Under the pieces are notes generated by a model. It was given only the letters and a program-made list of their open reading frames with translations, had not been told where the DNA came from and searched no databases. Made by a program: the position numbers and the translations under genes. 32,222 nucleotides of DNA from Bacillota bacterium (GTDB lineage Bacteria; Bacillota; TC1; UBA5767): the NCBI GenBank assembly GCA_007121025.1, contig SKMO01000012.1, positions 1 to 32,222 of the forward strand. The letters are read 5' to 3'. Positions 2,558-29,661 of this stretch are shown here, piece by piece; position 1 is the first letter of the stretch; every line of letters starts with the position of its first letter.

Positions 2558-2793
2558 TCAGAAAAGGGTCTTAAGAACAGGGGACCTTGTCCCTACTCAG
2601 AGGTGACAGTCTGTGATCGGTCAAACACCAAGGACATCAATGAGCACGCTGAGCTGAACAGGGCGGGGGACCGGCTTGAGGCGAACGGAACAAGAGTTGA
2701 TGGAACGGTTGAGAAGGACGGTTGTCGTTCAAAGGATCTGCGTGCCAGGACCAGAGGTGGCCGAATTATCTGTGTTGTTTGGCCTATCGCATC

Positions 2794-2800
2794 GAGGAGG
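2794..2800 (+). promoter_or_regulatory. ribosome binding site deciding a TTG start (fbp)
   Basis: GAGGAGG lies 8 nt before TTG 2809. Neither the first in-frame codon of the open frame (2722) nor ATG 2824 has a comparable site at proper spacing, so TTG is favoured. Confidence 0.65.
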
Positions 2801-2808
2801 TGTTTCGT

Positions 2809-4770
2809 TTGGATCAGCACTACATGAGACTCTTGGCCCGGGAATACCCCACCCGGGAGGCAGCGGCCGCCGAGGCCATCCGGTTGGGGGGGATTTTGCG
2901 GCTGCCCAAGGAGACCGAGTATTTTTTCAGTGATCTGCACGGGGAGTTTGAGGCGTTTTCCCATCTGCTGCGTTCGGCGTCCGGGTACATCCGGCTGAAA
3001 CTTGATGAGTTGTTTGGCAGCACGCTGACCGAAAAGGAACTGGACTGGCTGTGCAATCTGATCTATTATCCTGAAACGGAGAGCCACCGGTTCAGGCATG
3101 AGGCCGGGGGAGATCTGACAGTCTACCGGACGGTGGTCGACCAACTGATTGCCCTGATCAACGCCATTTCGGCCAAGTACACCCGGTCCTATATGCGCAA
3201 AAAGCTGCCTCCCGACTGGGCGGGCATGATCGATGAGCTTCTGCATGGCAATGAGGAGTACAAATCGGGCGCCATTCAGGAGACCGTCCGGGGAATCTAC
3301 CAAAGCGACATGATGCCCGAATTTCTCCAGAGCCTGGCCCTGACCATACAGCGGCTGGCCATCGACCGGATTCATATTTTGGGAGATGTTTACGACCGGG
3401 GGCCCCGGCCCGATAAGATCATGGACGCTCTGATGGGGTTCCAGGAAGTGGACTTTCAGTGGGGGAACCACGACATTCTCTGGATGGGAGCGGCCGCCGG
3501 AAGCCGGCCCTGTATGGCCAACGTGGTGCGCCAGGGGGTTAAATACAACAACTTCGATGTGCTGGAGGGCGGCTATAACATCAACCTCAGGCCACTGGCC
3601 GTCTTTGCCCAGACCGTTTACGGGGACGACCCCTGCACCCATTTCTGGCCCAAAAAACTCTACCGGAACCGCTACAATCCGGTGGACGCCGAACTGGCGG
3701 CCAAAATGCACAAGGCCATTTCGGTGATCGGGTTCAAACTGGAAGGGCAGCTCATGAACCGACACCCGGAATACGGGATGGCAGACCGGCGCCTCTGGGA
3801 ACAGGTGGACTGGACGCGCCGCAGCCTGACTCTGGACGGGAACGAAGTCTTTCTGCGGGACAGCTTCTTTCCCACGGTCGACCCAGCCGATCCCCTGGCC
3901 CTGACGGACGAAGAGGGCCAACTGGTGGAAACGATCATCACGTCGTTTCGCCATTCCCAGAGGCTGAAGAACCACGTCCGGTTTCTCCACACCCATGGAT
4001 CCATGTACCGGGTGTACAACGGCAATCTGTTGTATCATGGATGTGTTCCCCTGAATCCTGACGGGACCTTTGCCGCCATGGAGGTAGAGGGACAGACGGT
4101 GTCCGGCCAGGCGCTTCTGGACGCCATGGAAACTGTGGTCCGCCGGGCCCACTGGGCCCCGGCCCACACCCCGGAACAGTACAAGGCCCGGGACTTTCTG
4201 TGGTATCTGTGGTGTGGACAGCATTCCCCCCTGTACGGGAAAGACCGGATCACCACCTTTGAGCGTACGTTTCTGGAGGACAAACAGACCCACAAGGAGC
4301 AGATGAATCCCTACTACGGTTTTCTGGACGACCGGGATGTGATCCGTCAGATCCTGGGTTCCTTCGGACTGGATCCGGAGCAGGCCCACATTATTAATGG
4401 TCATGTGCCGGTCAGCGTCCGAAAGGGACAAAGCCCCGTCCGTGGAGAAGGCCAGCTGTTCCTGATTGACGGAGGGATCTCCAAAGCCTACCAGGAGACC
4501 ACGGGAATCGGGGGCTACACGCTGATCTACAATTCCCGGTACCTGGCCCTGGCTGAACACGATCCGTTTGTCCGGGACACGGCGGACCGACCGGTGGATC
4601 TGACTCCCCGGACCACGATTGTTCACCGGATGAAGAAGCGGGTGACCGTCGGGGACACCGACGATGCCCGGGAAATCCTCCGTGAGAAACAGGCTTTGGA
4701 AGAACTGGCCGAAGCCTACCGGACCGGTGGCTTGCGGGAGTTGAGCTATCCGGCCCGGGGACGGCGGTAG
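2809..4770 (+). CDS. fbp: fructose-1,6-bisphosphatase, class III
   Basis: It hydrolyses fructose-1,6-bisphosphate to fructose-6-phosphate in gluconeogenesis; class III is the calcineurin-like metallophosphatase form typical of Bacillota. From the TTG start the protein has 653 residues, within the family's usual 640-670. The metal-site motifs occur in order: SDLHGE (D42, H44), GDVYDRG (192-198), GNHD (219-222) and GHVPV (531-535). The N-terminal segment from LLAREYPT through LPKETEYFFSDLHGE aligns closely with characterised Fbp proteins. The frame stays open back to 2722, but the added residues are Cys/Trp-rich and unlike the family, and the best ribosome site serves TTG 2809. The 250 nt upstream hold only a weak candidate promoter (TTGAGA at 2709). 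A terminator follows, so the gene is probably monocistronic. Its product would feed the sucrose-forming genes near the window end. Confidence 0.95.
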   Translation: MDQHYMRLLAREYPTREAAAAEAIRLGGILRLPKETEYFFSDLHGEFEAFSHLLRSASGYIRLKLDELFGSTLTEKELDWLCNLIYYPETESHRFRHEAGGDLTVYRTVVDQLIALINAISAKYTRSYMRKKLPPDWAGMIDELLHGNEEYKSGAIQETVRGIYQSDMMPEFLQSLALTIQRLAIDRIHILGDVYDRGPRPDKIMDALMGFQEVDFQWGNHDILWMGAAAGSRPCMANVVRQGVKYNNFDVLEGGYNINLRPLAVFAQTVYGDDPCTHFWPKKLYRNRYNPVDAELAAKMHKAISVIGFKLEGQLMNRHPEYGMADRRLWEQVDWTRRSLTLDGNEVFLRDSFFPTVDPADPLALTDEEGQLVETIITSFRHSQRLKNHVRFLHTHGSMYRVYNGNLLYHGCVPLNPDGTFAAMEVEGQTVSGQALLDAMETVVRRAHWAPAHTPEQYKARDFLWYLWCGQHSPLYGKDRITTFERTFLEDKQTHKEQMNPYYGFLDDRDVIRQILGSFGLDPEQAHIINGHVPVSVRKGQSPVRGEGQLFLIDGGISKAYQETTGIGGYTLIYNSRYLALAEHDPFVRDTADRPVDLTPRTTIVHRMKKRVTVGDTDDAREILREKQALEELAEAYRTGGLRELSYPARGRR

Positions 4771-6575: not shown

Positions 6576-8207
6576 ATGGGCATGACCATCAGGGAGCTGT
6601 TGAATGAAGAGTATTTTTCCGGGATGCGGGTGATTGCCGGACAGGAAGGCACGGGCCGTCAGGTCAGTGGCCTGGCGATTCTCGACGCACCGGACGGACT
6701 GGACTGGGCTCGGGGAAGCGAGCTGGTTCTGAGCTCCGGCTATGTGTTTGCGGCCCGCGAGGGTCTGTTTGATGAACTGATCCGGCAGAAAAAGCTGGAG
6801 CGCATCGCGGCCCTTGGCATCAAAATGCGGTTTTTCGACCGTATCCCGGACCACGTGCTGGCCTATTTCAATCAACAGGACATTCCTCTGCTGGTTGTCC
6901 CTGAAGAATGCTCCTGGCCGGAAAGCATCTTTCAGTTCAACATGCTGGTATTCAACAACGCTCTGCACATGTTTGACATTCATGAGGGGGAAATCTCCGC
7001 GTCCAAAACCAGTCCTTACGATGAGGGTAAAATTGCCCGGATTCTCTCGCGGATCGAATACGCCACCAAACGGCCGGCGATGCTGTACGACCGGCTGACG
7101 GAAGAACAATACCACAGTTCCAGCAAATTCAAGAAGCGAAGTCTTTTTGCCCGTCCGGAAGACTATGTGAATGATTCTCTGAGGATTCAGAAGGAAACCC
7201 TTAGCGTGCGCGGCCATATGAGCATCTACGAAATGCCGGGAAGAGGGACGGAAGATCCGGTCCGCTGGATGGTCTCTCCTCTGGTGGTCAACAACCAGAC
7301 GGACGCCTACCTGATCGTCCTGCAGGGACGGGAGCCACTGAACAGCATTGACCGGATGACCCTGCGGGTGGGGCAGTCGCTTCTTCGAAACATCTATGAG
7401 CGCAAACGGTTTTCCATCCTGCTTCAGGACACGCATTTCCGGAATCTGGTCCATGACTGCATCGACAGCAAAGGGGTGGCCAGCAAGAAGATCCTTGCTC
7501 TGTCGAAAGAATACGCGATCTCCCTGTATGGACAGTATTGTCTGGTGTATATGGAACAGCCTGGTGCAGGTCTGTCGCCCGACGACTTACGGCGTGTCAA
7601 AGCACACCTGGCTCCCCTTGGTGCCAGGCAGGTCCAACTGGGGGAACTAAGCTGTCTGTTTCTGATCCCCGTGGGAGACGATTCCCGCCGGGTTGAACAG
7701 ATCAAAGAGCTGGCCGGCCAACTTCCGAAACGGACAGAGGCATCCCAGCAGACCGCCCCGGTGCAGTTCGGTGTGGCCCTGATCCCGGAGCCTCTTCTGA
7801 ACACCGGCGAAAATCTGGCCCGCTGCCGGCGGAGCGTGTCTGTCGGGCGGAGGCTGACGGCAGACCGCTGCGTGCATTTCTATTCGGATTTGGGACCGTT
7901 TGCCTGGATTGACGTCCATGAAGAGATGATGGAGTCGCTGGTCCGTGACCTTCGGGACTCGTTGCCGCAGCCCGAGGATGCAGACGAGCTGCTCCATACC
8001 CTGAAAACCTATCTGGCCTGCCGGATGAACTATTCACTGACGGCCCAGGAGTTCTTTGTGCACATCAACACGGTCCGCAAGCGGATTGAGACAGTCCGGG
8101 CGTTCATTTCCTATGATCTGGACAACCCATTCGACCGGCTTAAACTGGAACTGATCCTTGCGCTGTTTGACGGAGATTCGCTTCGCGGGAAACAAGGCTC
8201 AACATGA
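6576..8207 (+). CDS. PucR family transcriptional regulator
   Basis: This 543-residue protein has the PucR/CdaR architecture. An N-terminal PucR sensory domain (about 5-125; TIRELLNEEYFSGMRVIAGQ, then GSELVLSSGYVF) is followed by a long middle region. The C-terminal PucR-type helix-turn-helix covers about 472-535 (LLHTLKTYLACRMNYSLTAQEFF, then HINTVRKRIETV and DNPFDRLKLELILAL). Such proteins usually activate neighbouring catabolic genes in response to a metabolite; the founding member controls purine use. The ATG at 6576 has AAGGAG at 6562-6567; a second ATG at 6582 is too far from it. A terminator follows, then two direct repeats upstream of a transporter-amidohydrolase operon. That operon is its most likely target. 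The effector is unknown. Confidence 0.9.
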   Translation: MGMTIRELLNEEYFSGMRVIAGQEGTGRQVSGLAILDAPDGLDWARGSELVLSSGYVFAAREGLFDELIRQKKLERIAALGIKMRFFDRIPDHVLAYFNQQDIPLLVVPEECSWPESIFQFNMLVFNNALHMFDIHEGEISASKTSPYDEGKIARILSRIEYATKRPAMLYDRLTEEQYHSSSKFKKRSLFARPEDYVNDSLRIQKETLSVRGHMSIYEMPGRGTEDPVRWMVSPLVVNNQTDAYLIVLQGREPLNSIDRMTLRVGQSLLRNIYERKRFSILLQDTHFRNLVHDCIDSKGVASKKILALSKEYAISLYGQYCLVYMEQPGAGLSPDDLRRVKAHLAPLGARQVQLGELSCLFLIPVGDDSRRVEQIKELAGQLPKRTEASQQTAPVQFGVALIPEPLLNTGENLARCRRSVSVGRRLTADRCVHFYSDLGPFAWIDVHEEMMESLVRDLRDSLPQPEDADELLHTLKTYLACRMNYSLTAQEFFVHINTVRKRIETVRAFISYDLDNPFDRLKLELILALFDGDSLRGKQGST

Positions 8208-8252
8208 TCCGTGAGATCCAGAAGAACATACAACGTCATCCTGAAGGTCACG

Positions 8253-8282
8253 GGAAGCGGTTCATGCCGCTTTCTTTTTTTG
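8253..8282 (+). terminator. intrinsic terminator after the PucR gene
   Basis: AAGCGG at 8255-8260 and CCGCTT at 8267-8272 enclose a 6-nt loop, followed by TTTCTTTTTTT. It separates the regulator from its presumed target operon. Confidence 0.85.
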
Positions 8283-8291
8283 GTTCCCTGC

Positions 8292-8333
8292 AAAAATGTT
8301 TTCTTTTGGGTGCGAAATTGTAAAAATGTTTTC
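8292..8333. promoter_or_regulatory. two 12-bp direct repeats, candidate activator sites
   Basis: AAAAATGTTTTC occurs exactly at 8292-8303 and again at 8322-8333, a 30-bp period (about three helical turns). Each copy is a near-palindrome (AAAA-TG-TTTT). Their centres lie at about -72 and -42 from the predicted start near 8370, the classic positions for an activator at a promoter with a poor -35. The PucR protein encoded just upstream is the obvious candidate ligand. Confidence 0.65.
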
Positions 8334-8357
8334 ATACCCTGCGGTTCAGTGCCGTTG

Positions 8358-8363
8358 TATACT
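8358..8363 (+). promoter_or_regulatory. -10 element of the membrane protein-amidohydrolase operon
   Basis: TATACT matches five of six consensus positions. The sequence 16-18 bp upstream (around 8334-8341, ATACCCTG) has no recognisable -35, which is typical of activator-dependent promoters and fits the direct repeats next to it. Confidence 0.55.
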
Positions 8364-8406
8364 GCAACCAAAGAAACGCCAAATTTGAGTTTATGGAGGG
8401 AAATCA

Positions 8407-9105
8407 ATGGATTATCTTGTGATTGCGAACAGCGCCCCCATGTGGATTGCCGCGGGTCTGGGAGTGGCTCTGGTGCTCTTCCAGTCCATCCTGTTCACCA
8501 AAAAATCAGTGGCCGCCGGAAAGAACATGGGACTGACCGACAAGCAGATGCGCAGTGCCATGGTCAGCAGTTTCATTACGTCCATCGGACCGACCATGGT
8601 GATCCTGACCGCGCTGCTTGTTCTGATCGTCAATCTGGGTTCACCGACCGCCTGGATGCGGTTGTCGTTCATCGGATCGGTGATGTTTGAGATGATGGCG
8701 GCTGGCTTTGGGACCGGGGCCCTGGGGCAAACCCTGGGTGTGGACCAGATCAGCAACACCGCGTTTGCCAACGCCCTGTGGACCATGGCTCTGGGTTCCA
8801 TCGGCTGGACCCTGGTGTCCGTGCTGACCGCCGACAAGATGGGCAAAGCCCAGAAAAAGCTCACCAAGGGTGATCCCGGCATGATGAAAGTCATTTCCAT
8901 CGGAGCTCTGGTGGGGGCGTTCGGGGCGCTTTTGCCCCCGCATCTGCTCAGTATGAACCGCAACACCGTGGCGGCCATTTCCGGTGGGGTGATCATGGCC
9001 GTCATGATTCTGATTTCCAAAAAATTCAGCCACAGGACCTGGATCAAAGAATGGTCGCTGGCCTTTGCTCTGTTTGGCGGCATGATCGTTGCCGCCATCG
9101 TGTAG
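8407..9105 (+). CDS. DUF5058 family integral membrane protein
   Basis: This 232-residue protein is highly hydrophobic, with about six membrane segments (near 12-31, 55-78, 85-102, 124-142, 161-178 and 185-230). It begins MDYLVIANSAPMWIAAG, which I recognise as the DUF5058 pattern; the family has no assigned function. GGAGGG at 8395-8400 gives 6-nt spacing to ATG 8407. The gene is first in a three-gene operon, 24 nt before a second membrane protein and then an M20 amidohydrolase, all behind a PucR-type regulator. The context suggests that the two membrane proteins together form a transporter for the substrate that the amidohydrolase cleaves. That is inference; no transporter signature is visible. 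Confidence 0.75.
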   Translation: MDYLVIANSAPMWIAAGLGVALVLFQSILFTKKSVAAGKNMGLTDKQMRSAMVSSFITSIGPTMVILTALLVLIVNLGSPTAWMRLSFIGSVMFEMMAAGFGTGALGQTLGVDQISNTAFANALWTMALGSIGWTLVSVLTADKMGKAQKKLTKGDPGMMKVISIGALVGAFGALLPPHLLSMNRNTVAAISGGVIMAVMILISKKFSHRTWIKEWSLAFALFGGMIVAAIV

Positions 9106-9129
9106 GCGCCGGGAAAGGGAGGAAAAACC

Positions 9130-9828
9130 ATGGAAAGACAACAAGCTGATCAAATCTATACAGAACAGTATCTGCCCGGGATTATCCGTTGGGGAAAAAT
9201 CACCAGCTGGCTGGCCATCCTGATTGCGTTTGGACCGGCCCTGGTTCTGGCTCTGGTCTACAAGACCGTTCCGCCGGTCAGTGCAATCGTGACCGGATTC
9301 GTGTCCATCGCTTCGGTGGTCGGGGTGATCTGGGTGGTGGAGCCGGTCTCCTACTTCCCGATCGTCGGGGTTCCGGGAACCTATATGTCCTTTATCTCCG
9401 GAAACATTTCGAATCTGCGGATTCCCTGTGCCACCGTGGCCCAGAAGGTGGCCGAGGTTGAGCCGGGGACCAGTGAAGGAAACATCATTGCAACCCTGGG
9501 GATTGCCATCTCAGTGGTCTCCAATGTCATCGTCATGACGATCGGCGTTCTTCTGGGAACGACCATCCTGACCATGGTGCCCCAGGGCATACTGGACGCT
9601 CTGAACTATCTCCTGCCGGCACTGTTTGGCGCCCTGTTCGTGCAGTTTTCCTTTGCCAAACCTGAACTGGCCCCCTTCGGCCTGGGGTTGGGACTCCTTC
9701 TGACTCTGGGTGTCCGGGGCGGCGTGCTGCCCTTCTGGACCACAACCCTGGGCGCTGTGGTGGGGACCATCCTGATCGGCGTCTGGTTCTACAAGCGAAA
9801 GCAGACGGGGGAGGACAGCGATGACTAA
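9130..9828 (+). CDS. integral membrane protein, probable partner of the DUF5058 protein
   Basis: This 232-residue protein has six or seven hydrophobic segments, near 24-46, 50-73, 75-95, 117-145, 150-177, 180-200 and 202-222. The soluble N-terminus and a Lys/Asp-rich C-terminal tail are probably cytoplasmic. A Gly/Pro/Ser-rich stretch at about 75-100 (VSYFPIVGVPGTYMSFISGN) resembles a re-entrant or substrate-facing segment. I cannot name a family. It has the same length as its neighbour, so a two-subunit transporter is plausible. GGGAGG lies just upstream of ATG 9130. Its last codons overlap the start of the amidohydrolase gene by 8 nt, implying translational coupling. Confidence 0.7.
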   Translation: MERQQADQIYTEQYLPGIIRWGKITSWLAILIAFGPALVLALVYKTVPPVSAIVTGFVSIASVVGVIWVVEPVSYFPIVGVPGTYMSFISGNISNLRIPCATVAQKVAEVEPGTSEGNIIATLGIAISVVSNVIVMTIGVLLGTTILTMVPQGILDALNYLLPALFGALFVQFSFAKPELAPFGLGLGLLLTLGVRGGVLPFWTTTLGAVVGTILIGVWFYKRKQTGEDSDD

Positions 9829-11218
9829 ACGGGAACTTCTCGAATTTCTGCAGTCTCTGGAAGATGAAGTCACCGGTTACAGCCAGGCCCTTTGGGATCA
9901 TCCGGAAACCGCGGGCCAGGAGATGGCCAGCGCAGATCTGTCCAGACAGATGCTGTCGAAACATGGGTTTTCCATCCGGGACGTGCCGGGCATGGACAAC
10001 GCCCTGATCGCAGAGTTTGGGGAAGGGGCCCCGGTGATCGCCATATTGGGTGAATACGACGCACTGCCCGGGTTGTCCCAGGCCAGAGTGGCAGAGAAAA
10101 AACCCCTCATATCCGGTGGACCGGGTCAGGGTTGTGGGCACAACCTGCTGGGAGGAGCGGCCTTCGGGGCCGCCCTGGCCCTGAAGGAATACCTGGTCCA
10201 GGAAAGCCTGTCGGGGACCGTCCGGTTTTACGGGTGTCCGGAGGAAGAATCGCTTTCCGGGAAAGTCAAAATGCTGAAGGCCGGCGTGTTCAGTGACTGC
10301 GACATTGCCCTGAGCTGGCATCCCCTGACGATCAATGCAGCCCTCAACGAAGCCTTTCTGGCCAACAATTCCGTGAAATTCCGCTTTCACGGCCGCACGG
10401 CACACGCGGCCTTTGCCCCGGACAAAGGGCGGTCGGCCCTGGATGCGGTGGAACTGATGAACGTGGGGGCCAACTATCTGCGTGAGCACATCACGTCTGA
10501 TGCCCGGATGCATTACACCATCACGGAAACCGGCGGTGTGCCCAACATCATTCCGGATCTGGCAGAATCCTGGTATTACGTCCGGGCTCCCCGGCGCCGG
10601 GACGTGGAGGACATCTCCAAACGCCTGATGAATGTGGCCGAGGGTGCCGCCATGATGACCGATACAACCGTGGAAGAGGACTTTATCTGCGGAACGTACG
10701 AGTTTCTCCCCAATGACGTGCTGTTCGGAGTGACCCACCAGAACATGGAGGAGGTCGGAATACCGGAGTACACCCCTGAAGAACTGGCTTTTGCAAAGGA
10801 GCTGCAGAAGGCACTTTCCCCGGAGGCCATTCGGGCTGAGGTGACCCGGACTGCCTCGATGACCGGCCGGGAAGACCCGGTGATTTCCCAGGGACTTTAC
10901 GACCCTGAAAAGCCATGTGGAAACATGGTCAACGGCTCTTCGGAGGTAGGCGATGTTTCCTGGAACATCCCGACCAGTCTTTTTGTGACAGCCACCTGGC
11001 CGGTGGGAGTCCCGCCCCACACCTGGCAGGCCACCGCTGCTTCCGGTTCGTCCATCGGGTACAAGGCGATGCACTACGCAGCCAGGATCATGACGGGGAT
11101 CGGCTACGATCTTCTGAACAATCCCACCCTGGTCGAAGAGGCCAACCAAGAGCTGCAGGTGAGAACCCGCGAGCAGCCATACGTGAACTCCCTGGACGCG
11201 GGCATCTCCAAAGAATAG
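9821..11218 (+). CDS. M20 family amidohydrolase, AbgB-like
   Basis: This 465-residue protein is an M20 metallopeptidase/amidohydrolase, closest in pattern to AbgB, the p-aminobenzoyl-glutamate hydrolase subunit. The di-metal motifs appear in order: ILGEYDALPG (E78, D80), GCGHNLLGGAA (C105, H107), the general-base pair PEEES (E141, E142) and SWHP (H167). The dimerisation (lid) domain begins near HGRTAHAAF (about 190-198). A C-terminal HTWQATAASGSSIGYKAM completes the site. AbgB-type enzymes cleave amide bonds of acyl- or aroyl-amino acids, but the actual substrate here is unknown. It overlaps the upstream membrane gene by 8 nt, with GGGGGAGG upstream of its ATG. I infer intracellular hydrolysis of an imported amide or peptide under PucR control. 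No AbgA or AbgT gene is present. Confidence 0.9.
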   Translation: MTKRELLEFLQSLEDEVTGYSQALWDHPETAGQEMASADLSRQMLSKHGFSIRDVPGMDNALIAEFGEGAPVIAILGEYDALPGLSQARVAEKKPLISGGPGQGCGHNLLGGAAFGAALALKEYLVQESLSGTVRFYGCPEEESLSGKVKMLKAGVFSDCDIALSWHPLTINAALNEAFLANNSVKFRFHGRTAHAAFAPDKGRSALDAVELMNVGANYLREHITSDARMHYTITETGGVPNIIPDLAESWYYVRAPRRRDVEDISKRLMNVAEGAAMMTDTTVEEDFICGTYEFLPNDVLFGVTHQNMEEVGIPEYTPEELAFAKELQKALSPEAIRAEVTRTASMTGREDPVISQGLYDPEKPCGNMVNGSSEVGDVSWNIPTSLFVTATWPVGVPPHTWQATAASGSSIGYKAMHYAARIMTGIGYDLLNNPTLVEEANQELQVRTREQPYVNSLDAGISKE

Positions 11219-11233
11219 ACAGTGATGCAGTGC

Positions 11234-11281
11234 ACCCGGCCAAGTCATCTGTGTGGATCTGGCCGGGTGTGTTCTGTTTTC
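11234..11281 (+). terminator. intrinsic terminator after the amidohydrolase
   Basis: A 9-bp stem (ACCCGGCCA at 11234-11242, TGGCCGGGT at 11260-11268) with a 17-nt loop is followed by the T-rich GTGTTCTGTTTT. Confidence 0.8.
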
Positions 11282-11321
11282 CCGGAACGACCGCAGCCCG
11301 GCAACCCACGGGTGAACGGCT

Positions 11322-11352
11322 GACTGAGCCCAAGTGGTGGCTCAGTCGTTTT
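11322..11352 (+). terminator. second hairpin, probable backup terminator
   Basis: A perfect 9-bp stem (GACTGAGCC at 11322-11330, GGCTCAGTC at 11339-11347) with an 8-nt loop is followed by GTTTTAC. It sits 41 nt after the first terminator. Confidence 0.7.
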
Positions 11353-11368
11353 ACATGAGGAAAAGGAT

Positions 11369-11414
11369 CACGCCCAACGGGACCTGAGAACACTCTCAGG
11401 TCCCGTTGGGCGTG
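11369..11414 (-). terminator. 21-bp perfect hairpin, aldolase terminator
   Basis: The arms 11369-11389 and 11394-11414 are exact reverse complements over 21 bp with a 4-nt loop. On the - strand the hairpin is followed by ATCCTTTTCC, about 30 nt past the aldolase stop, which fits intrinsic termination. On the + strand no T-tract follows. The stem is unusually long for a terminator. Confidence 0.8.
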
Positions 11415-11443
11415 TGTGGTTCAGTGAATGAGGGCTGATCAGA

Positions 11444-12331
11444 TCAGCGGACTGATGCCTGGTAGATCTGCTCAATGGAGTCGCCGAGCATCTGGTTGAA
11501 TTCGGCGTCGGTCTGTTCTGCGTGGAGACCTTCCAGAAGGGCCCGCGAGAAGCTGGCAATCAGGCCGGGGTTCTGTTCGAGCAGTCTGCAGGCTTCATCC
11601 CGGCTGTATCCCCCTGACAGGGCGACCACCCGCAGTACGTTTGGGTGAGCAATCAGATCAGCATAGAAATCCGGTACTGTGGGGAGGGAAAGTTTCAGCA
11701 TGATCCGGTGGCCTTTGGGCAGAGTCGCCAGGTGTTTCATAATCACCGTTTTCAGCAGCTCTTCAGACTGTGTTTTGTCCGGACTGCCAATGTCCACCTC
11801 GGGCTCCAGAATCGGGATCAGTCCGGCCTCCAGAATAACCGTGCCCCATTCAAACTGCTGCTGAACGATGGCCGCGATTCCCGCGGGATCCGCTTCGCTG
11901 ATGACCGAACGCATTTTCGTTCCAAAAACATTCCGTTCAATGGCCCGCTGGAGGAGTTGGTCCAAATCGGGGTTTGGTTTCATCAACCGGACCCCCCGGT
12001 CTTCCGGGGCCAATCCTTTGTCCACCTTCAGAAAGGGGACGATTCCCTTTTTCTTCCAGAGATAGTCTGCCGTGTGCAGATCCCCAACGGTCCGGTCCAT
12101 GGTCTGTTCAAACAGGATGGCCCCCAGAACACGTTCATTTGTAAATGCGGGGCTGGTTACGACCCGTGTTCTCATCTGATGGATCAGCTGAAACATTTCG
12201 TCCTCACTGTCGTACGCTTCCCGGCCCACCCCGTAAGCCTTCAGGGCCTTGGGGCTGCTGCCGCCGCTTTGATCGAGGGCTGCAACGAACCCGGGGTTAT
12301 GGGCCATGATGTTCATTTGTTTTTCAAACAA
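11444..12331 (-). CDS. fructose-bisphosphate aldolase, class I
   Basis: It cleaves or forms fructose-1,6-bisphosphate by Schiff-base chemistry. The protein closely matches the staphylococcal-type class I aldolase (about 296 residues): AALDQSGGSSPKALK near the N-terminus, GAILFEQTMDR, VPFLKVDKGL, IPILEPEVDI, the Schiff-base region MLKLSLPTVP (Lys213 from the TTG start), and the phosphate-binding VVALSGGYSRDEA. The frame is open to a GTG at 12340. An AGAGG site at 12344-12340 overlaps that GTG and lies 8 nt from TTG 12331, so TTG is preferred (295 residues). ATG 12316 is too far from the site. With class III FBPase it could supply gluconeogenesis. Promoters lie upstream on the - strand, and a 21-bp hairpin follows the stop. 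Confidence 0.95.
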   Translation of the reverse strand: MFEKQMNIMAHNPGFVAALDQSGGSSPKALKAYGVGREAYDSEDEMFQLIHQMRTRVVTSPAFTNERVLGAILFEQTMDRTVGDLHTADYLWKKKGIVPFLKVDKGLAPEDRGVRLMKPNPDLDQLLQRAIERNVFGTKMRSVISEADPAGIAAIVQQQFEWGTVILEAGLIPILEPEVDIGSPDKTQSEELLKTVIMKHLATLPKGHRIMLKLSLPTVPDFYADLIAHPNVLRVVALSGGYSRDEACRLLEQNPGLIASFSRALLEGLHAEQTDAEFNQMLGDSIEQIYQASVR

Positions 12332-19909: not shown

Positions 19910-20536
19910 ATGACAAACCAGTTCAGCCTCCTGTGGGTCGTTCTGGGAGCAGGGACCTACCTACTGGGGGCCCTGCCTCTGGGCTACTGGCTGACCCGCC
20001 GGGTGACAGGAATCCAATTGGATCGTTTTGCGACGGGAAACACGGGGGTGGCCAATGCTTTCCGGGCAGGTCCGCCCTGGCTTGGCGGAACCATTGTGTT
20101 GCTGGACATTCTGCGGATGCTGGGGTTCCTTCGGCTGGGAGAACGTTATTGGGCACTGTCCCGGGAAGCCCTTTATTTTGGGCTCCTGATGATGGTCGCC
20201 GGCAACATGCACTCCGTCTTCCTGTCGTTTCGGGGCAGCAAGGGCAGAACCCTGAGCCTTTGGGGCATGCTGTATCTGCAGCCGCTGGTTCTTCTGGTGC
20301 TGACAGGGATCTGGGGACTGGGGTTTGCCGTGACGGGGCGGTCCCGGAAGGCTGTCTGGTGGATGCTTCCCCTGATTGCCCCTCTGGTGGGCTATGCTGA
20401 GGGCAGTGTTCCGGTTTTTCTGATGGCGCTGGGGCTGACCGCTCTGTATGCCGTGAACAACGGGGAAAACCGGGATGATTTTGCCTACCAGATGGAGCTG
20501 ATCCGCGAGCGCAGAAAACAGGCCGGTGAGCGCTGA
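19910..20536 (+). CDS. divergent PlsY-like (glycerol-3-phosphate acyltransferase family) membrane protein
   Basis: This 208-residue protein of about five membrane segments resembles PlsY, which transfers the acyl group of acyl-phosphate to glycerol-3-phosphate. The first PlsY motif is clear: GALPLGYWLTRRVTGIQL, then TGNTGVANAFRAG (20-54) and GGTIVLLDILR (59-69). The second is altered: the usual GHxxPxFLxFKGGKG is GNMHSVFLSFRGSKG (98-112). The third, near the C-terminus (normally RLxxGTE), is absent. A change of substrate or loss of activity is therefore possible. The ribosome site (AGG at 19903) is weak. It starts a tightly packed operon, with its stop overlapping the next ATG by one base. 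As the first enzyme of a cluster with a hydrolase and a methyltransferase it hints at lipid or amphiphile chemistry. That is inference. Confidence 0.7.
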   Translation: MTNQFSLLWVVLGAGTYLLGALPLGYWLTRRVTGIQLDRFATGNTGVANAFRAGPPWLGGTIVLLDILRMLGFLRLGERYWALSREALYFGLLMMVAGNMHSVFLSFRGSKGRTLSLWGMLYLQPLVLLVLTGIWGLGFAVTGRSRKAVWWMLPLIAPLVGYAEGSVPVFLMALGLTALYAVNNGENRDDFAYQMELIRERRKQAGER

Positions 20537-21450
20537 TGGACGGCCTCCCGATCCTGGCCCTGGTGCTGGTCCCGGCCGTGGGGTTCCTGCCGGCTGCCGA
20601 CCTGATGACTTTTCTTCGGTGGTGGCCCCGGCTGCGGCCATCGGTGATGCGGGACCGGCACAGCGTTGTGTCGCCCTATGGAAGGCTGTCGTATGTTATG
20701 CGTGGCAGGGGACCCCGGGCACTGGTTCTCATCCATGGGTTTCTCGAATCTGCCGAGCAGTGGCGTCCGGTGACGGACCTGCTGCCGGAAGGGCTCCGGG
20801 TGATTGCCGTGGATCTCAATTCGTTTGGGTTCAGTGTACCGGCAAAAGGTGTGAGCCTGAGCAAGCAGTCACTCAGTGAGGCGCTGCACTGGCTGCTGAA
20901 CAGCCTGGAGGTGTCGGATGCGGTGGTCGCCGGGCACTCCATGGGGGCAGAAGTGGCCGGGATGCTGGCCGTCAACCATCCGGAGACCGTTGGAGATCTG
21001 ATTCTTTTGGCACCCGGTGGGTTGCGCAGCCGGGGTTTTCCGGTGATTCCCACACCCCTGGTGACCCTGCTGTTCAAGAACATCCTGGTGCAGAGACGGT
21101 TCAGCAGACTGGACTGGTCTCAGGCCTCCCCGGAACAGCGGGAGCGGTTTGCCGTTCAGTATGTGATCAACCGGCGGATTCCCGGGCGGTTTCTGCACCG
21201 GTTTCAGCGGGACGATGACACGGGCAGCCTGGAAGTCATTCTCCCCCGGATCAGGCAGAAAACGCTGGTTGTGTGGGGAGACAGGGACCGGGTGATCCCT
21301 CCGGAAGACGGACAGAAGGTGGTGAGGCTTCTGCCCGGGGCAAGTGCAGTGGTGATACCAGGGGCCGGGCACGATCTGCCGGCTGCCCATACCGGTGATG
21401 TGGTGCGCCTGATCCAGAGGGTTATTGACGAGAGAGAGGACATAAGATGA
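20536..21450 (+). CDS. alpha/beta hydrolase, probably membrane-anchored
   Basis: This 304-residue protein has an alpha/beta hydrolase fold with a complete catalytic triad: nucleophile Ser135 (GHSMGAE), Asp251 (GDRDRVIP) and His279 (GAGHDLP). An oxyanion-hole motif, LIHGFLES, is at 65-72. Residues 4-23 (LPILALVLVPAVGFLPAADL) form a hydrophobic N-terminal segment that may anchor it to the membrane. The family covers esterases, lipases, haloperoxidases and C-C hydrolases, and nothing in the sequence fixes the substrate. The start ATG overlaps the previous stop (TGATG) and the end overlaps the methyltransferase start (ATGA), so translation is coupled on both sides. Confidence 0.88.
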   Translation: MDGLPILALVLVPAVGFLPAADLMTFLRWWPRLRPSVMRDRHSVVSPYGRLSYVMRGRGPRALVLIHGFLESAEQWRPVTDLLPEGLRVIAVDLNSFGFSVPAKGVSLSKQSLSEALHWLLNSLEVSDAVVAGHSMGAEVAGMLAVNHPETVGDLILLAPGGLRSRGFPVIPTPLVTLLFKNILVQRRFSRLDWSQASPEQRERFAVQYVINRRIPGRFLHRFQRDDDTGSLEVILPRIRQKTLVVWGDRDRVIPPEDGQKVVRLLPGASAVVIPGAGHDLPAAHTGDVVRLIQRVIDEREDIR

Positions 21451-22274
21451 ACAACACAGTGGCAGCAATCCGTTCCTTTATGTGGAACGATGATTATCAG
21501 GAGGTGTTGGCCCGCAATGTTCTGCGTCTCCGTGAGGGGCAGACCGTGGCGGATGTGGGCTGTGGAGACGGGTATCTGTCCCGGACGTACTATCCGTATG
21601 TGCATCCGGGAGGATCCTTTACAGGGTATGATGTGGACCGGGAGGCGCTGTCCATGGCGGCGGGCCTGTTGGACGACCATCCGGACTGGAACCTGTCGTT
21701 TGAGGAGGCGGATGCGTACGCCCTGCCGGCAGAGGATGGGTCGGTGGACCGGGTGGTCTGCCAGACCCTCTTGATGCATCTGGCAGAACCGGAAAGGGCC
21801 ATCGATGAAATGCTTCGGATCTTAAGGCCCGGGGGATGGATCGTCTGCATGGAGCCGGACATGCTCCTGTCGTCCCTGAGCCGGTACTATCCTGACGACA
21901 CCGACGAGCAGTGGCTGGACAAAGCCGGCCAGCGGCTGCGCCAGTTTACGGCCATGCAGGAGGCAGGACGCGGCGACTTTCGAATCGGCCGGAAGCTTCC
22001 AGACATCTTTTCACGAAAGGGCCTTCGGAACGTGGAGATGCGCCTCAACGATGCGGTCTACCAGCTGATTCCACCTTATGAACCCCGGCGGGAACGGGGC
22101 TACAGGAAATTTATGGAACAGTCCCTGAAGCCCTCCGGGGGGACGGGACCCTTTGGCCAGCAGGGGGCGGAGGCAGACGGCGCCCACTGGGAGCAGCTCA
22201 AAGAGCAGACTTTGTTGACTCATGTGACCAACATGTTGTACATTGTCAGTGGACAGAAGGAGAACCATTCATGA
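21447..22274 (+). CDS. class I SAM-dependent methyltransferase
   Basis: This 275-residue protein has a class I methyltransferase core (Methyltransf_11/25 type). Motif I is VADVGCGDGYLS (34-45), the acidic residue after strand 2 is in FTGYDVDREALSMA (about 58-71), motif post-II is ADAYALPAEDGSVDRVVC, and motif III is LRPGGWIVCMEPD. The C-terminal 120 residues are variable and presumably bind substrate. The best general analogy is to UbiE-like small-molecule or lipid methyltransferases. It overlaps both neighbours by 4 nt (ATGA). AGAGAGGA precedes its start. The substrate is unknown; the operon context points to a small molecule handled together with the hydrolase and the ECF importer. Confidence 0.9.
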   Translation: MNNTVAAIRSFMWNDDYQEVLARNVLRLREGQTVADVGCGDGYLSRTYYPYVHPGGSFTGYDVDREALSMAAGLLDDHPDWNLSFEEADAYALPAEDGSVDRVVCQTLLMHLAEPERAIDEMLRILRPGGWIVCMEPDMLLSSLSRYYPDDTDEQWLDKAGQRLRQFTAMQEAGRGDFRIGRKLPDIFSRKGLRNVEMRLNDAVYQLIPPYEPRRERGYRKFMEQSLKPSGGTGPFGQQGAEADGAHWEQLKEQTLLTHVTNMLYIVSGQKENHS

Positions 22275-22807
22275 AACGATTCGGAATCAAGGAGATTATT
22301 TTTGCAGCCATCGTGTCTGTGGGCATGAACGTGGTCAGTTTTATCGCAGTGCCATTGGCCACGGCGATTCCCGTTCCGGGAGCCCGGACGCTGTTGATCG
22401 CTCCATTTTACGGGGTCCTGATGGTCATCGCCATTCTCAAGGTGCCCCGGTTTGGCATGCCGACGCTGGTGGCCGTTTTCACGGGAGCCGTGATGCTGTT
22501 TATCAGCCCGACGATCTTCTTTTTCCTCACGACCAGTGCGGTGCTGTCAGAATTGATCACGTTTGTTGTGTTCCGTGGCTACAGGGCAAAGTGGGCTCCT
22601 GTGGTCCTGTCGGGGCTTTACTGCGGGTTCCAGGTGCCCTTTGGTGTGTTGTTCGGGTCCATTTTTGTGGGTGACTATGTGGCGGCCTTCGTGGTGACGG
22701 TCCCGGTGATGACCGGAATGTTCCTGGCGGCATTTCTGCTGGGAGCCCTGGGAGGCATGGTGGGCCGGAAAATCGGGGCGGAGTTAAGGGAGATCGGTAA
22801 ACTGTGA
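22271..22807 (+). CDS. ECF transporter S component, MptD-like
   Basis: This 178-residue protein has about five membrane segments (near 8-29, 38-58, 62-92, 95-125 and 132-165). It is followed directly by EcfT and a fused EcfA, so it should be the substrate-binding subunit of a dedicated (group I) ECF importer. The C-terminal pattern GALGGMVGRKI and the overall size recall the MptD/Trep_Strep class, whose substrate is not known. I see none of the signatures of the biotin, riboflavin, thiamine, folate or cobalt S components. It overlaps the methyltransferase by 4 nt and EcfT by 4 nt (GTGA). Confidence 0.75.
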   Translation: MKRFGIKEIIFAAIVSVGMNVVSFIAVPLATAIPVPGARTLLIAPFYGVLMVIAILKVPRFGMPTLVAVFTGAVMLFISPTIFFFLTTSAVLSELITFVVFRGYRAKWAPVVLSGLYCGFQVPFGVLFGSIFVGDYVAAFVVTVPVMTGMFLAAFLLGALGGMVGRKIGAELREIGKL

Positions 22808-23499
22808 TCGGCAGAGGGTTCAGCGAAAAAAGCGGCGGTTTTCTGGACAGGATCCATCCGCTGCTCACATTGGTCCTGTCCCTGGCCATTGTGATCAATG
22901 GCCTGTTGTGGCGGGAACCGGGAAGTCTGGCGGCTTATTTTGGGGTGATTGTCACCATTATGCTGTGGTCGCGGCTGGGAAAACCGATGGCCCGGATGGC
23001 CCGGTTCATTCTGCCACTGGCCCTGTTTATCGGGATGGTCAATTACCTGGGCTTCCGGGATCCGGTCACGGCGTTTTTGTCGGGGATCCGGATCTGCCTG
23101 TTCGGACTGTCGTACGTTTTCTTCAGTGCGACCACCACTCCGGCAGAACTGGTAGGGGCCCTGGGCGGACGGGTTCCGCCCAAAATGGCCCTGGGTCTGA
23201 TCATTGCATTTCGGTTTATTCCGGTCATGCTCAAAGAGCTTCAGGATATCAGAACAGCGTCCCTGCTTCGGCCGGTTCGGTCGTCGGCGCCGGTCTGGGA
23301 CAGGGTATACCGGGCCGTTTTGGTGCCCTTTGTGTTTCGCCTGGTATCCATCAGTGATGAGATCTATGCGGGCATCGTGACCAGAGGGTTTTGCGATGAA
23401 TGCACCAGAAGTCAGTACAGGGAGTTTCCCTGGCGGCGGATTGATGTTGGGGCGGTGCTCTTTGTGGTGGCCACCGTGTCATTGGCGGTGATCCTATGA
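22804..23499 (+). CDS. ECF transporter T component (EcfT, CbiQ family)
   Basis: This 231-residue transmembrane coupling subunit begins with a short cytoplasmic segment and DRIHPLLTLVLSLAIVI, typical of EcfT. It has four to five membrane helices and the coupling helices that contact the ATPases (ELQDIRTASLLRP, and DEIYAGIVTRGF with a TRG in place of the usual ARG). Length is normal for small EcfT proteins (about 230-270). The start is GTG, overlapping the S-component stop. The stop overlaps the ATPase start as ATGA. Confidence 0.88.
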   Translation: MIGRGFSEKSGGFLDRIHPLLTLVLSLAIVINGLLWREPGSLAAYFGVIVTIMLWSRLGKPMARMARFILPLALFIGMVNYLGFRDPVTAFLSGIRICLFGLSYVFFSATTTPAELVGALGGRVPPKMALGLIIAFRFIPVMLKELQDIRTASLLRPVRSSAPVWDRVYRAVLVPFVFRLVSISDEIYAGIVTRGFCDECTRSQYREFPWRRIDVGAVLFVVATVSLAVIL

Positions 23500-24878
23500 G
23501 TGGCCCCATTCTTCAAATCGACAACCTGGAGGTGCGCTACCCCAATACCACCGTGGCGGCACTGGGGCCGGTGAACCTGACCATTCGCCGGGGGCAGCTG
23601 GTCCTGATCCATGGACGAAGCGGCTGTGGGAAGTCCACCCTGTTTAAAGTCCTCAACGGTCTGATCCCCCAGGTGGAACCGGCTACAGTGACAGGGTCCG
23701 TGCTGATGGATGGCCGGGAACTGGGGGAAAGCAGTCCCCAGCTGATCTCACGGACCGTGGGCAGTGTGTTTCAGAACTTCGAAGCGCAGATCATCCAGAC
23801 CACCGTGGGGGATGAGCTGGTCTTTGGGATGGAAAATCTCAATGTGGAGCGACAGGAAATGAGCCGGCGATTGCTGGGCTCTGCCTTTGTGTCCTCTTGG
23901 CCGGAGAATACCCCGGTGGACCGGCTCTCCGGAGGAACGAAACAGAAACTCATTCTGGAAGCGGTGCTGGCCATGCAGCCGGAAATGTTGATTCTCGATG
24001 AGCCGTTGTCCAACCTGGACGCCGACAGCAGCCAGTCTCTCCTGGTCCAGCTCAGAAAGCTGGCCGATCAGGGAAAGACGGTGATCATGATTGAGCACCG
24101 GGTGGATCTGGTGGAACAATGGGCCGACCAGGTGGTCAATCTGGGCAGGTACAGTCCGGGCGTGAAGAACCAGGTAAGGAAGGGAACTGAACCGGCGGAC
24201 GCCGTGCTGGATGTCAGCGACCTGCGGTTTTCCTACGTCCCCGGCCAACCTGTGCTTCAGGGGGCTGATCTGACACTGGCCCGGGGGGCATCAACCGTTC
24301 TCATGGGGGACAATGGCTCGGGCAAGTCGACCCTGTTCCGGGTCCTGGCCGGTCTGGTGCCCTATCAGGGGGGATCCGTCCAGTTGCTGGGACGGGAACT
24401 GCGGGCCTGGAAGCGCAAACGGTTGCGCAACGTGCTGGGTTACGTTCTTCAAAACCCCAACCACCAGCTCTTCATGAAATCGGTCCGGGAGGAGATCATG
24501 ATGGGCGCGGCCTCGGAAGATGATGTGGGGTGGATTGTGGACACAGCGGGGATCGGGGACCTGTTGGACCGGCATCCGTTTTCTCTGAGTGAGGGGCAGA
24601 AACGACTGGTGGCCTGTTGCGCCGTCCTGGCGGGCCGGCCCCAGGTGCTTCTTCTCGATGAACCGACGATCGGCCAGGACGACCAGAGTCTGGACAGCAT
24701 GCTTCACCTGGTGCAGGACATGATCAGGCAGGGGCAGACTGCGGTTCTGTCGGTGACCCATGACAGCCGGGCGGCACAGGCTTTGGGCTCAGTGATTTAC
24801 CAGCTTGAGGGTGGAAAGACCGTCCTGCATTCCGGGATGGTATTGACCGGACAGACATTGACAGAGCGGCCGTTGTGA
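23496..24878 (+). CDS. ECF transporter ATPase, fused EcfA-EcfA' (two ABC domains)
   Basis: This 460-residue protein has two complete ABC ATPase domains in one chain. Domain 1 has Walker A GRSGCGKST (40-48), a Q-loop FQNFEAQ, signature LSGGT (normally LSGGQ) and Walker B MLILDEPLSNLD. Domain 2 has Walker A GDNGSGKST (about 272-280), Q-loop VLQNPNHQLFM, signature LSEGQ and Walker B VLLLDEPTIGQD. The first-domain signature deviates, so the two sites may be functionally unequal. It powers the ECF importer with the S and T subunits just upstream. A 27-nt gap follows before the dikinase-like gene, with no terminator. Confidence 0.92.
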   Translation: MSGPILQIDNLEVRYPNTTVAALGPVNLTIRRGQLVLIHGRSGCGKSTLFKVLNGLIPQVEPATVTGSVLMDGRELGESSPQLISRTVGSVFQNFEAQIIQTTVGDELVFGMENLNVERQEMSRRLLGSAFVSSWPENTPVDRLSGGTKQKLILEAVLAMQPEMLILDEPLSNLDADSSQSLLVQLRKLADQGKTVIMIEHRVDLVEQWADQVVNLGRYSPGVKNQVRKGTEPADAVLDVSDLRFSYVPGQPVLQGADLTLARGASTVLMGDNGSGKSTLFRVLAGLVPYQGGSVQLLGRELRAWKRKRLRNVLGYVLQNPNHQLFMKSVREEIMMGAASEDDVGWIVDTAGIGDLLDRHPFSLSEGQKRLVACCAVLAGRPQVLLLDEPTIGQDDQSLDSMLHLVQDMIRQGQTAVLSVTHDSRAAQALGSVIYQLEGGKTVLHSGMVLTGQTLTERPL

Positions 24879-24905
24879 GCCGCAGACCAGAACAGGGAGG
24901 ATACG

Positions 24906-27152
24906 ATGACACGATTAACCCCGATCAACCGCCTGCGCTCGGCAAAAACGGCCGGTTCCAAGGCGTACTCTCTCCAAAAGCTGCAACGGGCAGGTCTGCG
25001 GATCCCGGAGTCCTGGGCCATAGACTTTGCAGCCTGGAACGAGTACCGGAAGGACCCTGATGCGGTGCTTCTTTCCCTGGAAGAGGCACTGCGTGTTCTG
25101 CCGGAAGACCGCCTTTATGCAGTCCGGTCTTCCGCCAGTCTCGAAGACGATGCGGAGCGTTCGTTTGCCGGCCAGTACCGGTCTTTTCTGCAGGTTTCCG
25201 GAAGGGATGGCCTCCTTCAGGCGGTTCAGGGTGTCTGGGACAGTGCCCGGGACCCGGAGCTCACCCGGTACCTGGGCGGGGGAACAGAGACAGATGTGCA
25301 GATGGGGGTGATCGTTCAGGAACAGATCGACGGGGTGTACTCCGGGGTGCTGTTCACCCGCAACCCGCTGACCGGGGGAGCGGAGATGATCGTGGAAATG
25401 GTGGCCGGTTCCGGGGAAGGGCTGGTCCAGGACGGTAAAACGCCCCTTCGTTACGTGGACAAGTGGGGGCTGTGGACGGAAACGCCGGTCGCGGGTTCCG
25501 AGGAGACAAGAGCCATTGCGGAGACTGTCCGTGACGAGGCGCTCCGTTTCCGCAAACGGTTTCCCGGAGACTGGGACCTGGAGTGGGTTTGGGACGGCGG
25601 TGCCCTGTACTGGGTGCAGGCCCGCCCCATCACCGGCCTGGAGAAGCTGCGGTATTACTCCAGCCGGGCGTCCCGGGAGTTTTTGCCCGGCATGATCAGC
25701 CCGCTGGTCTGGTCCACCAACACGCCACTAGTCAATGGTGCCTGGCAGACCATCCTGACCCGGCTGGTTGGACGCCGCTCGGACATCCGGACAGACGCTC
25801 TGACCAAGGCCTTCTATTACCGGGCGTATTTCAACATGGGGCTGATCGGGGACGTGCTGGAAACTCTGGGTCTGCCCAGGGAAACCCTGGAACTGCTGCG
25901 GGGCAACGAACGACCGGGCCCCAGGCGGCCGCGGTTTCGGCCGACGTTCCGTTCGCTTCCCCATGTGCCACGGGTGTTTTCGTTCCTGCGGGAAGTCCGT
26001 TCGTTTCCGAAGGAGGCGTCAGCCTATCTGGACGGAAACCGTGAGCGGTTCAGGCGGCGGTTGGAGGAGGTTTCCAGGCAGCTGCCTGATCTGTCGGACC
26101 GGGAGATTCTGGAGGTCATCGACGGGCTGACCGAAGACATGCACCCGGCGGCGTACTACAATGTGATGACACCGCTGATCCGGAATGCGCGGACCGCCAT
26201 GCTGAGAAAACAGATGAAGCGCGCGGGAATCCGGTTTGAAGGACTGGTTCCTCCCCGGGGGCATTTCGAGCAGTTGCGGGAGGATGACCCTACTGTGCGG
26301 ATGCGTGAACTGTCGATTCTCCGACAGGAGCAGGGACCGGAAAGCCCGGCATACCGGGACGGGCTGAAACGGTTTGTGAACATCTTCGGGCATCTGAGCG
26401 CGAACAACAATGATTTTTCGGTGGCTTCCTGGCAGGAGGATCTGCCGGCGCTGGATGCATTGATCGCCCAGGTACCGGACGTCCCCTCCGGAAGCGTTCC
26501 GGAGATGGGAAACAACCGGCGGCTGAAGACGCTCTACGACAGGGCGGTGTCGCTGAGTCTTCTCAAGGAGAAGATCAGTGCCCATTACCTGCGGGGCTAC
26601 CGGCTGTACCGCAGCTGCTATCTGGAACTGGGCAGACGCTGGACAGAGGCGGGATGGTTTCAGAAGCCGGAGGACGTCTTCTTTTTGTACAGGGATGAGC
26701 TGGCGGGAAGCCACAATGACTGGGCAGAGAAGATCAAGGAACGCCGGGAGGAGTTTCAGGCCTACCGGGACCTGATCCTTCCGGTTGAAATCATCGGGGA
26801 GGATCCGCCCCCCCCGATCACCGAGGTGTCACACCAGTTTTCCGGTGTGCCGGTGTCCAAAGGGGTGTTCCGGGGGCCGGTGAAGGTCCTCCGGTCACCG
26901 GATGACGCTCAGGTGAGTGCTTCCGATGTGGTGGTGATCCCCTATGCGGACATCAGCTGGACACCGGTCCTGATCCGGGCCGGGGCCATTCTTTCCGAGT
27001 CAGGGGGCATGCTTTCCCACAGTGCAATCGTCGCCAGGGAGTTTCGGATTCCGGCGGTCGTCTCGGTACCGGATGTGATGGCCATATCACCGGGGGCTGT
27101 GGTGACTGTGGATGGATCCACCGGGAATATTCTGATCGAAGACCGTAATTGA
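24906..27152 (+). CDS. PEP synthase/rifampin-phosphotransferase-like dikinase
   Basis: This 748-residue protein contains an N-terminal ATP-grasp PPDK_N domain (about 15-245; VRSSASLEDDAERSFAGQY, then TRNPLTGG and WVQARPITG). A central region of about 400 residues follows, then a C-terminal PEP-utiliser mobile (swivel) domain with the phospho-accepting His705 in ESGGMLSHSAIVAREF. The PEP/pyruvate TIM barrel of true PEP synthase is missing, and the domain order matches rifampin phosphotransferase (ATP domain, substrate domain, His domain). It should therefore transfer a phosphate from ATP through His705 to a small molecule bound by the central domain. Whether that is an antibiotic or a metabolite is unknown. 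GGGAGG upstream of ATG 24906 is strong. It closes the operon with the ECF importer, methyltransferase and hydrolase. Confidence 0.85.
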   Translation: MTRLTPINRLRSAKTAGSKAYSLQKLQRAGLRIPESWAIDFAAWNEYRKDPDAVLLSLEEALRVLPEDRLYAVRSSASLEDDAERSFAGQYRSFLQVSGRDGLLQAVQGVWDSARDPELTRYLGGGTETDVQMGVIVQEQIDGVYSGVLFTRNPLTGGAEMIVEMVAGSGEGLVQDGKTPLRYVDKWGLWTETPVAGSEETRAIAETVRDEALRFRKRFPGDWDLEWVWDGGALYWVQARPITGLEKLRYYSSRASREFLPGMISPLVWSTNTPLVNGAWQTILTRLVGRRSDIRTDALTKAFYYRAYFNMGLIGDVLETLGLPRETLELLRGNERPGPRRPRFRPTFRSLPHVPRVFSFLREVRSFPKEASAYLDGNRERFRRRLEEVSRQLPDLSDREILEVIDGLTEDMHPAAYYNVMTPLIRNARTAMLRKQMKRAGIRFEGLVPPRGHFEQLREDDPTVRMRELSILRQEQGPESPAYRDGLKRFVNIFGHLSANNNDFSVASWQEDLPALDALIAQVPDVPSGSVPEMGNNRRLKTLYDRAVSLSLLKEKISAHYLRGYRLYRSCYLELGRRWTEAGWFQKPEDVFFLYRDELAGSHNDWAEKIKERREEFQAYRDLILPVEIIGEDPPPPITEVSHQFSGVPVSKGVFRGPVKVLRSPDDAQVSASDVVVIPYADISWTPVLIRAGAILSESGGMLSHSAIVAREFRIPAVVSVPDVMAISPGAVVTVDGSTGNILIEDRN

Positions 27153-29661
<2,509 letters not shown>

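Follow-up and report, generated by a model that had tools for sequence, protein, structure and literature searches.

What could place a PlsY-like membrane protein and a dikinase resembling rifampin phosphotransferase (Rph) at the two ends of one operon, with a complete importer between them? The question is raised by seven plus-strand genes at positions 19910-27152 of a 32,222-nucleotide stretch of DNA (contig SKMO01000012.1, assembly GCA_007121025.1; hereafter the window) from a Bacillota bacterium. The best explanation is that the core of the operon is a two-protein module, composed of a non-canonical PlsY-like membrane protein (208 aa, 19910..20536) and a dedicated Rph-type dikinase (748 aa, 24906..27152), and this pair is very probably a functional unit. 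It suggests that a phosphorylated molecule associated with the membrane is made or handled in a way not yet described, and no account of such a pair was found in the open-licence literature.

The pairing was revealed by a homologue scan of one genome each for 84,980 species, in which the dikinase was the sole query and no PlsY information was used. A total of 26 loci at 28-38% identity was obtained, hosted by Chloroflexota, Thermotogota, Bacillota, Bacteroidota, KSB1, metagenome-assembled genomes (MAGs) labelled Proteobacteria and several archaeal phyla, and in most of them a PlsY-like gene adjoined the dikinase, though the search was blind to PlsY. Six loci were added from whole genomes, and all 32 dikinase loci were checked uniformly with hidden Markov models for a PlsY-like partner; the loci named here other than the window come from MAGs. 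The two genes were directly adjacent in 20 of the 32 loci and fused into a single open reading frame (ORF) in four (L004 from Bathyarchaeota, L012 from Lokiarchaeota, L019 from Dehalococcoidales and L145 from an Asgard genome). At one Asgard locus (L142, 1/32), the genes for the PlsY-like protein, an ATPase, an FtsX permease and the dikinase stood in a row, so that the pair encloses an ATP-binding cassette (ABC) transporter; the window has a similar layout, with an energy-coupling factor (ECF) transporter in that place. A PlsY neighbour within about 1.5 kb was found at none of 34 other Rph/phosphoenolpyruvate (PEP)-synthase-type dikinase loci from the same searches. The first-pass annotation of the window had taken the seven genes as a single system and had proposed conservation of the neighbourhood as a check; with 32 loci set against the 34 controls, the pair passed it, and the single-system idea stood for the outer genes of the operon.

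No PlsY-like gene was present at seven of the 32 loci, five of which lay at contig ends. One of these, L011, comes from a genome in which a second contig (L147) terminates with a PlsY-like gene grouped with ATPase and permease genes, as if assembly had split the same layout; L028 and L150, also from one genome, are possibly pieces of a single locus. The distances among PlsY-like proteins correlated with those among their dikinase partners (r 0.447, Mantel p 1e-4), and the correlation dropped to 0.228 after close pairs were removed; partners have therefore probably been swapped at times. Two arrangements were observed besides. In Asgard locus L144, two clade II PlsY-like genes (9152-9931, + strand, and 10898-11704, - strand) lay on opposite strands around one dikinase, and the module occurred twice in the Bathyarchaeota MAG G399, as a fusion (L004:577-3609) and as separate genes (L149:6103-8684), the PlsY-like protein of the latter belonging to the other clade.

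The PlsY-like protein of the window was placed in family PF02660 (G3P_acyltransf) with 73.4 bits against a cut-off of 24.1, while the equivalog of true PlsY, TIGR00023, gave 39.9 bits against a cut-off of 137.2. Its AlphaFold2 model (mean predicted local distance difference test score, pLDDT, 88.8) had significant fold matches only to PlsY (5xj5-5xj8). It thus resembles PlsY of A. aeolicus (PDB 5xj5-5xj9) in fold, length and the glycine-rich loop forming the phosphate hole, and the linked family differs from PlsY by its association with a dikinase and by the absence of His177 and most of the clamp for glycerol 3-phosphate (G3P). In a tree built with A. aeolicus PlsY and 50 homologues not linked to a dikinase, the dikinase-linked proteins formed two clades, both apart from canonical PlsY, and only L024 clustered with the canonical proteins. 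The window protein fell on a long branch within clade I (100/94), among dikinase-linked and fused proteins; this is the clade that holds the fusions.

In A. aeolicus PlsY, the G3P pocket is composed of Ser35, Arg45, Lys104, Asn180 and His177, and the N180D substitution removed more than 95% of the activity (PMC5700162). When 29 linked and 50 unlinked homologues were compared in the numbering of this structure, the donor-side phosphate-binding loop was found to be kept in the linked proteins (G102 in 29/29, G103 in 27/29 and G105 in 29/29). On the acceptor side, R45 was present in 5/29 linked versus 47/50 unlinked proteins, K104 in 4/29 versus 44/50, H177 in 0/29 versus 44/50, and N180 in 2/29 versus 44/50; Glu or Asp stood at position 180 in 18 of the linked proteins, and a new conserved Ser/Thr at position 107 in 26. 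Judged from the alignment, the G3P clamp is largely gone from the linked family. At positions 35, 45, 104, 180 and 177 the window protein has Thr, Arg, Lys, Asn and Asn, which is short of the full pocket, and His92, Thr41, Ser142 and His177 were all replaced. As the host genome also encodes PlsX and two further PlsY homologues, the operon copy is a diverged, additional paralogue.

The dikinase contained an ATP-grasp domain (PPDK_N, 115.8 bits), a helical substrate domain and a C-terminal swivelling histidine domain (PEP-utilizers, 70.2 bits), the same order as in Rph (PDB 5hv1, 5fbs). The best PDB match of its AlphaFold2 model (pLDDT 84.1) was Rph-Lm (5hv1; E 1.4e-33), and the Rph-like architecture proposed in the first-pass annotation was confirmed by both domain order and fold; whole-chain TM-scores were low, as would be expected if the mobile domains sit differently in the model. 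The enzyme scored far below the equivalog cut-offs: Rph equivalog NF041857 gave 164.2 bits against a cut-off of 999 and PEP synthase TIGR01418 gave 128.9 against 739.75. Unlike PEP synthase, it has neither a central His domain nor a C-terminal PEP/pyruvate-binding domain, no match to the latter being found with Pfam. Unlike Rph, it is shorter by about 120 residues, has a PlsY-like partner and belongs to a separate clade, in which the linked dikinases were united with 100/100 support against 19 other dikinases. The family is marked by the blocks PGxIxPL, YYRAYFNM (invariant), GHxSxxxNDxS and ESGGxLSH. His705 aligned with the swivel histidine His825 of Rph, and Lys19 and Arg74, near-invariant in the family, were read as counterparts of Rph Lys22 and Arg117; the alignment indicates that the phosphate-carrying histidine and the principal residues of the ATP site are retained. 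A two-component kinase, HpeI/HpeH (PMC12167813, 9goj), shares the dikinase fold in its ATP-grasp part and uses a small hydroxy compound, but its substrate is a soluble aromatic, and the abstract mentions no PlsY-like partner.

The genes around the pair in other genomes favour a lipid or lipid-linked substrate, because a methyltransferase of the CMAS type (cyclopropane-lipid family) came after the pair in Gudongella (L013), and in L018, from a Bacteroidota MAG, the pair was followed by one further gene and then by genes for an ATPase, FtsX permeases and a LolA-like protein. FtsX-type ABC genes accompanied 15 of the 32 loci. A search of 12 archaeal genomes carrying the module found PlsX in none of them.

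The reading preferred here, with a probability of roughly 0.4, is that the dikinase makes a phosphorylated lipid-like donor for its PlsY-like partner, and that the transporter moves the substrate or the product. It was favoured because the donor loop is kept, the acceptor clamp is lost and often acidic at position 180, the two proteins can be fused, and PlsX was missing from those 12 archaeal hosts. Phosphate would be moved from ATP to His705, which would then swing toward an amphiphilic substrate bound in the helical domain, and the product would be a phosphorylated lipid-like molecule, such as an acyl phosphate derived from a free fatty acid. The role of the dikinase would be comparable to that of FakAB or PlsX, which supply PlsY with a phosphorylated acyl donor, although it is a protein unrelated to them. 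The PlsY-like protein would receive this product at its phosphate-binding loop, within the membrane's cytoplasmic half, and might then transfer the group to an acceptor, in most members other than G3P. An ATP-driven transporter, ECF in the window and FtsX-type ABC elsewhere, would carry substrate or product, and the hydrolase and methyltransferase of the window would be local tailoring additions. The wider proposal, an undescribed lipid-modification system of bacteria and archaea in which a swivelling-histidine dikinase supplies a phosphorylated lipid donor to a fused or partnered PlsY-like transferase with a new acceptor and a coupled transporter, is made only tentatively; if true, it would be a route to acyl or prenyl phosphates independent of acyl carrier protein and PlsX. 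The natural fusions allow a direct test of the chemistry of one branch in the large, mostly uncharacterised family of Rph-type dikinases.

Several points weigh against the donor-making reading. We know of no dikinase of the Rph-type fold shown to phosphorylate a carboxylate, the targets of Rph and HpeI being hydroxyls. FtsX-type ABC systems are widespread. Two loci (L006 and L014), among 27 with enough flank, had no nearby PlsY-like gene despite about 1 kb or more on each side. Among sources of acyl phosphate, the search in the hosts covered PlsX but not alternatives like FakAB. Finally, with R45, K104 and N180 retained and a Thr at 35, acylation of G3P is possible for the window member itself.

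The five genes between the pair encode an alpha/beta hydrolase with a hydrophobic N-terminal segment (304 aa, 20536..21450; PF00561, Abhydrolase_1, 91.7 bits; GHSMG nucleophile elbow), a class I S-adenosylmethionine methyltransferase with a UbiE/MenG-like region (275 aa, 21447..22274; PF08241, Methyltransf_11, 73.2 bits), and an ECF importer composed of a divergent S component of MptD/Trep_Strep type (178 aa, 22271..22807), a CbiQ-type EcfT (231 aa, 22804..23499; PF02361, 58.9 bits) and a fused double ATPase, EcfAA (460 aa, 23496..24878; PF00005 twice, 189.1 bits). The S component was assigned from its position and weak profile matches (PF09605/TIGR02185; Trep_Strep/MptD at 15.6 bits, under the cut-off). 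In EcfAA the Walker A and signature motifs of both complete ABC domains could be read from the sequence, and S, T and two ATPase domains were encoded together, as in other ECF importers with a dedicated three-protein set in one operon; the set of the window differs from these in being embedded between the PlsY-like and dikinase genes. Neither the hydrolase nor the methyltransferase reached an equivalog cut-off, so the accessory genes point to no pathway.

When the ORFs were re-read, the seven genes filled the operon with the boundaries already annotated, the PlsY-like and hydrolase genes overlapping by 1 nt and the next four junctions by 4 nt each, and the dikinase gene starting 27 nt past the ECF ATPase gene. 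Because of this coupling, a single transcript was inferred. The tight coupling and the gene identities of the first-pass annotation were therefore both upheld, the latter by Pfam families (Pfam and NCBIfam profiles were used throughout). The idea of all seven genes as one conserved pathway was not, since none of the other loci showed the window's S component, hydrolase or methyltransferase next to the pair, and S relatives occurred without the dikinase. Import and modification of an amphiphile is still a reasonable inference, with an FtsX-type ABC system filling the transporter slot elsewhere.

For the middle five genes, the chances that they act on the same molecule as the pair are about even. 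It is possible, if on the doubtful side, that they are a passenger cassette of a dedicated importer and tailoring enzymes which shares only transcription with the pair, and this would be compatible with the other explanations. The five genes stood with the pair in no other locus, and the window was the only case of an ECF importer beside the pair among the loci seen. Relatives of the S component (23-37% identity) were scattered in a few members of the phylum; the best (L171, 33%) lay beside EcfT, fused EcfAA and NEAT-domain genes with no dikinase, which weakly hints at a metallophore- or tetrapyrrole-type substrate. Against a mere passenger speak the overlaps that couple the first six genes and the transporter in the same internal slot at L142. 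In the same genome as the window, a second divergent S-component-like gene (L093:4695-5234, contig C62) was found next to a nucleoside-type ABC importer, and on its other side were genes like 5-methylthioribose-1-phosphate isomerase, purine/methylthioadenosine phosphorylase and S-adenosylhomocysteine hydrolase.

A rather less probable explanation is that the dikinase acts on a lipid alcohol (isoprenol, diacylglycerol or similar), whose hydroxyl it phosphorylates, and that the PlsY-like protein serves as a platform without acyltransferase activity that presents or sequesters the product. This would suit a protein with its phosphate loop retained and its acceptor clamp gone, and a module present in archaea, which have isoprenoid lipids; the conserved Ser/Thr at 107 suggests instead a kept or altered reaction and not a passive scaffold. 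Under one alignment setting, an R/K-E pair lined up gap-free with Rph Arg666-Glu667, which Rph requires to phosphorylate hydroxyls, but the match was lost under global alignment, and with this dependence on the setting it was not used as a firm argument.

It is unlikely that the dikinase makes the acceptor instead, phosphorylating an imported or cytosolic polyol to a G3P-like phosphate that the PlsY-like protein acylates with acyl phosphate from PlsX. The normal acceptor of PlsY is indeed a phosphorylated alcohol, the window operon includes an importer, and its PlsY-like protein keeps the three clamp residues in a host with PlsX, but most linked proteins are without the phosphate clamp, many with an acidic residue at 180, and the 12 archaeal hosts searched are without PlsX. 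Inactivation of a foreign amphiphilic antibiotic, with the transporters as efflux or uptake companions, is very improbable: rifampin phosphotransferase is the nearest solved fold and MacB/FtsX-type ABC genes are present at many loci, but the PlsY-like pairing and repeated fusion would be left unexplained, other Rph-type loci are without that pairing, and the transporter of the window is an importer and not an exporter.

Of 399 genomes from this phylum, only that of the window had the dikinase family, suggesting horizontal gain or patchy loss. Asgard and other archaeal PlsY homologues have been discussed as possible genes for bacterial-type lipid synthesis (PMC6431249, PMC13400652). In most archaeal genomes carrying the module, the PlsY homologue was dikinase-linked; that all archaeal PlsY are so linked was rejected, as in an Asgard survey PF02660 was found in 75 of 196 genomes versus 10 of 196 for the dikinase family. 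A minority of archaeal PlsY homologues thus belongs to the dikinase-linked group, and since the acceptor site is rewritten in this group, the name G3P acyltransferase is probably wrong for its members. Many Asgard genomes, such as G531, G563 and G470, also had PlsY-fold proteins roughly 400 residues long outside dikinase-linked loci, some of them arranged as tandem pairs or triplets.

The operon unit was delimited by a gap of 243 nt after a UvrD/AddA-like gene on the 5' side and of 289 nt on the 3' side before katG, a catalase-peroxidase gene on the same strand (27442-29661). Scans of the operon for promoters and terminators gave nothing convincing, and the search for plasmid carriage gave no match. 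A Firmicute-type fructose-1,6-bisphosphatase (2722-4770; PF06874, 832 bits) was not found in 20 related genomes searched, three of the same family included. The absence of FBPase_2 from relatives raises the possibility that this contig contaminates the MAG, which was not supported, the tetranucleotide composition being consistent with the rest of the MAG. At 6576-11218, genes for a PucR-type regulator, a DUF5058 membrane protein, a further protein and an M20 peptidase lay in a row, which looks like an operon for import and hydrolysis.

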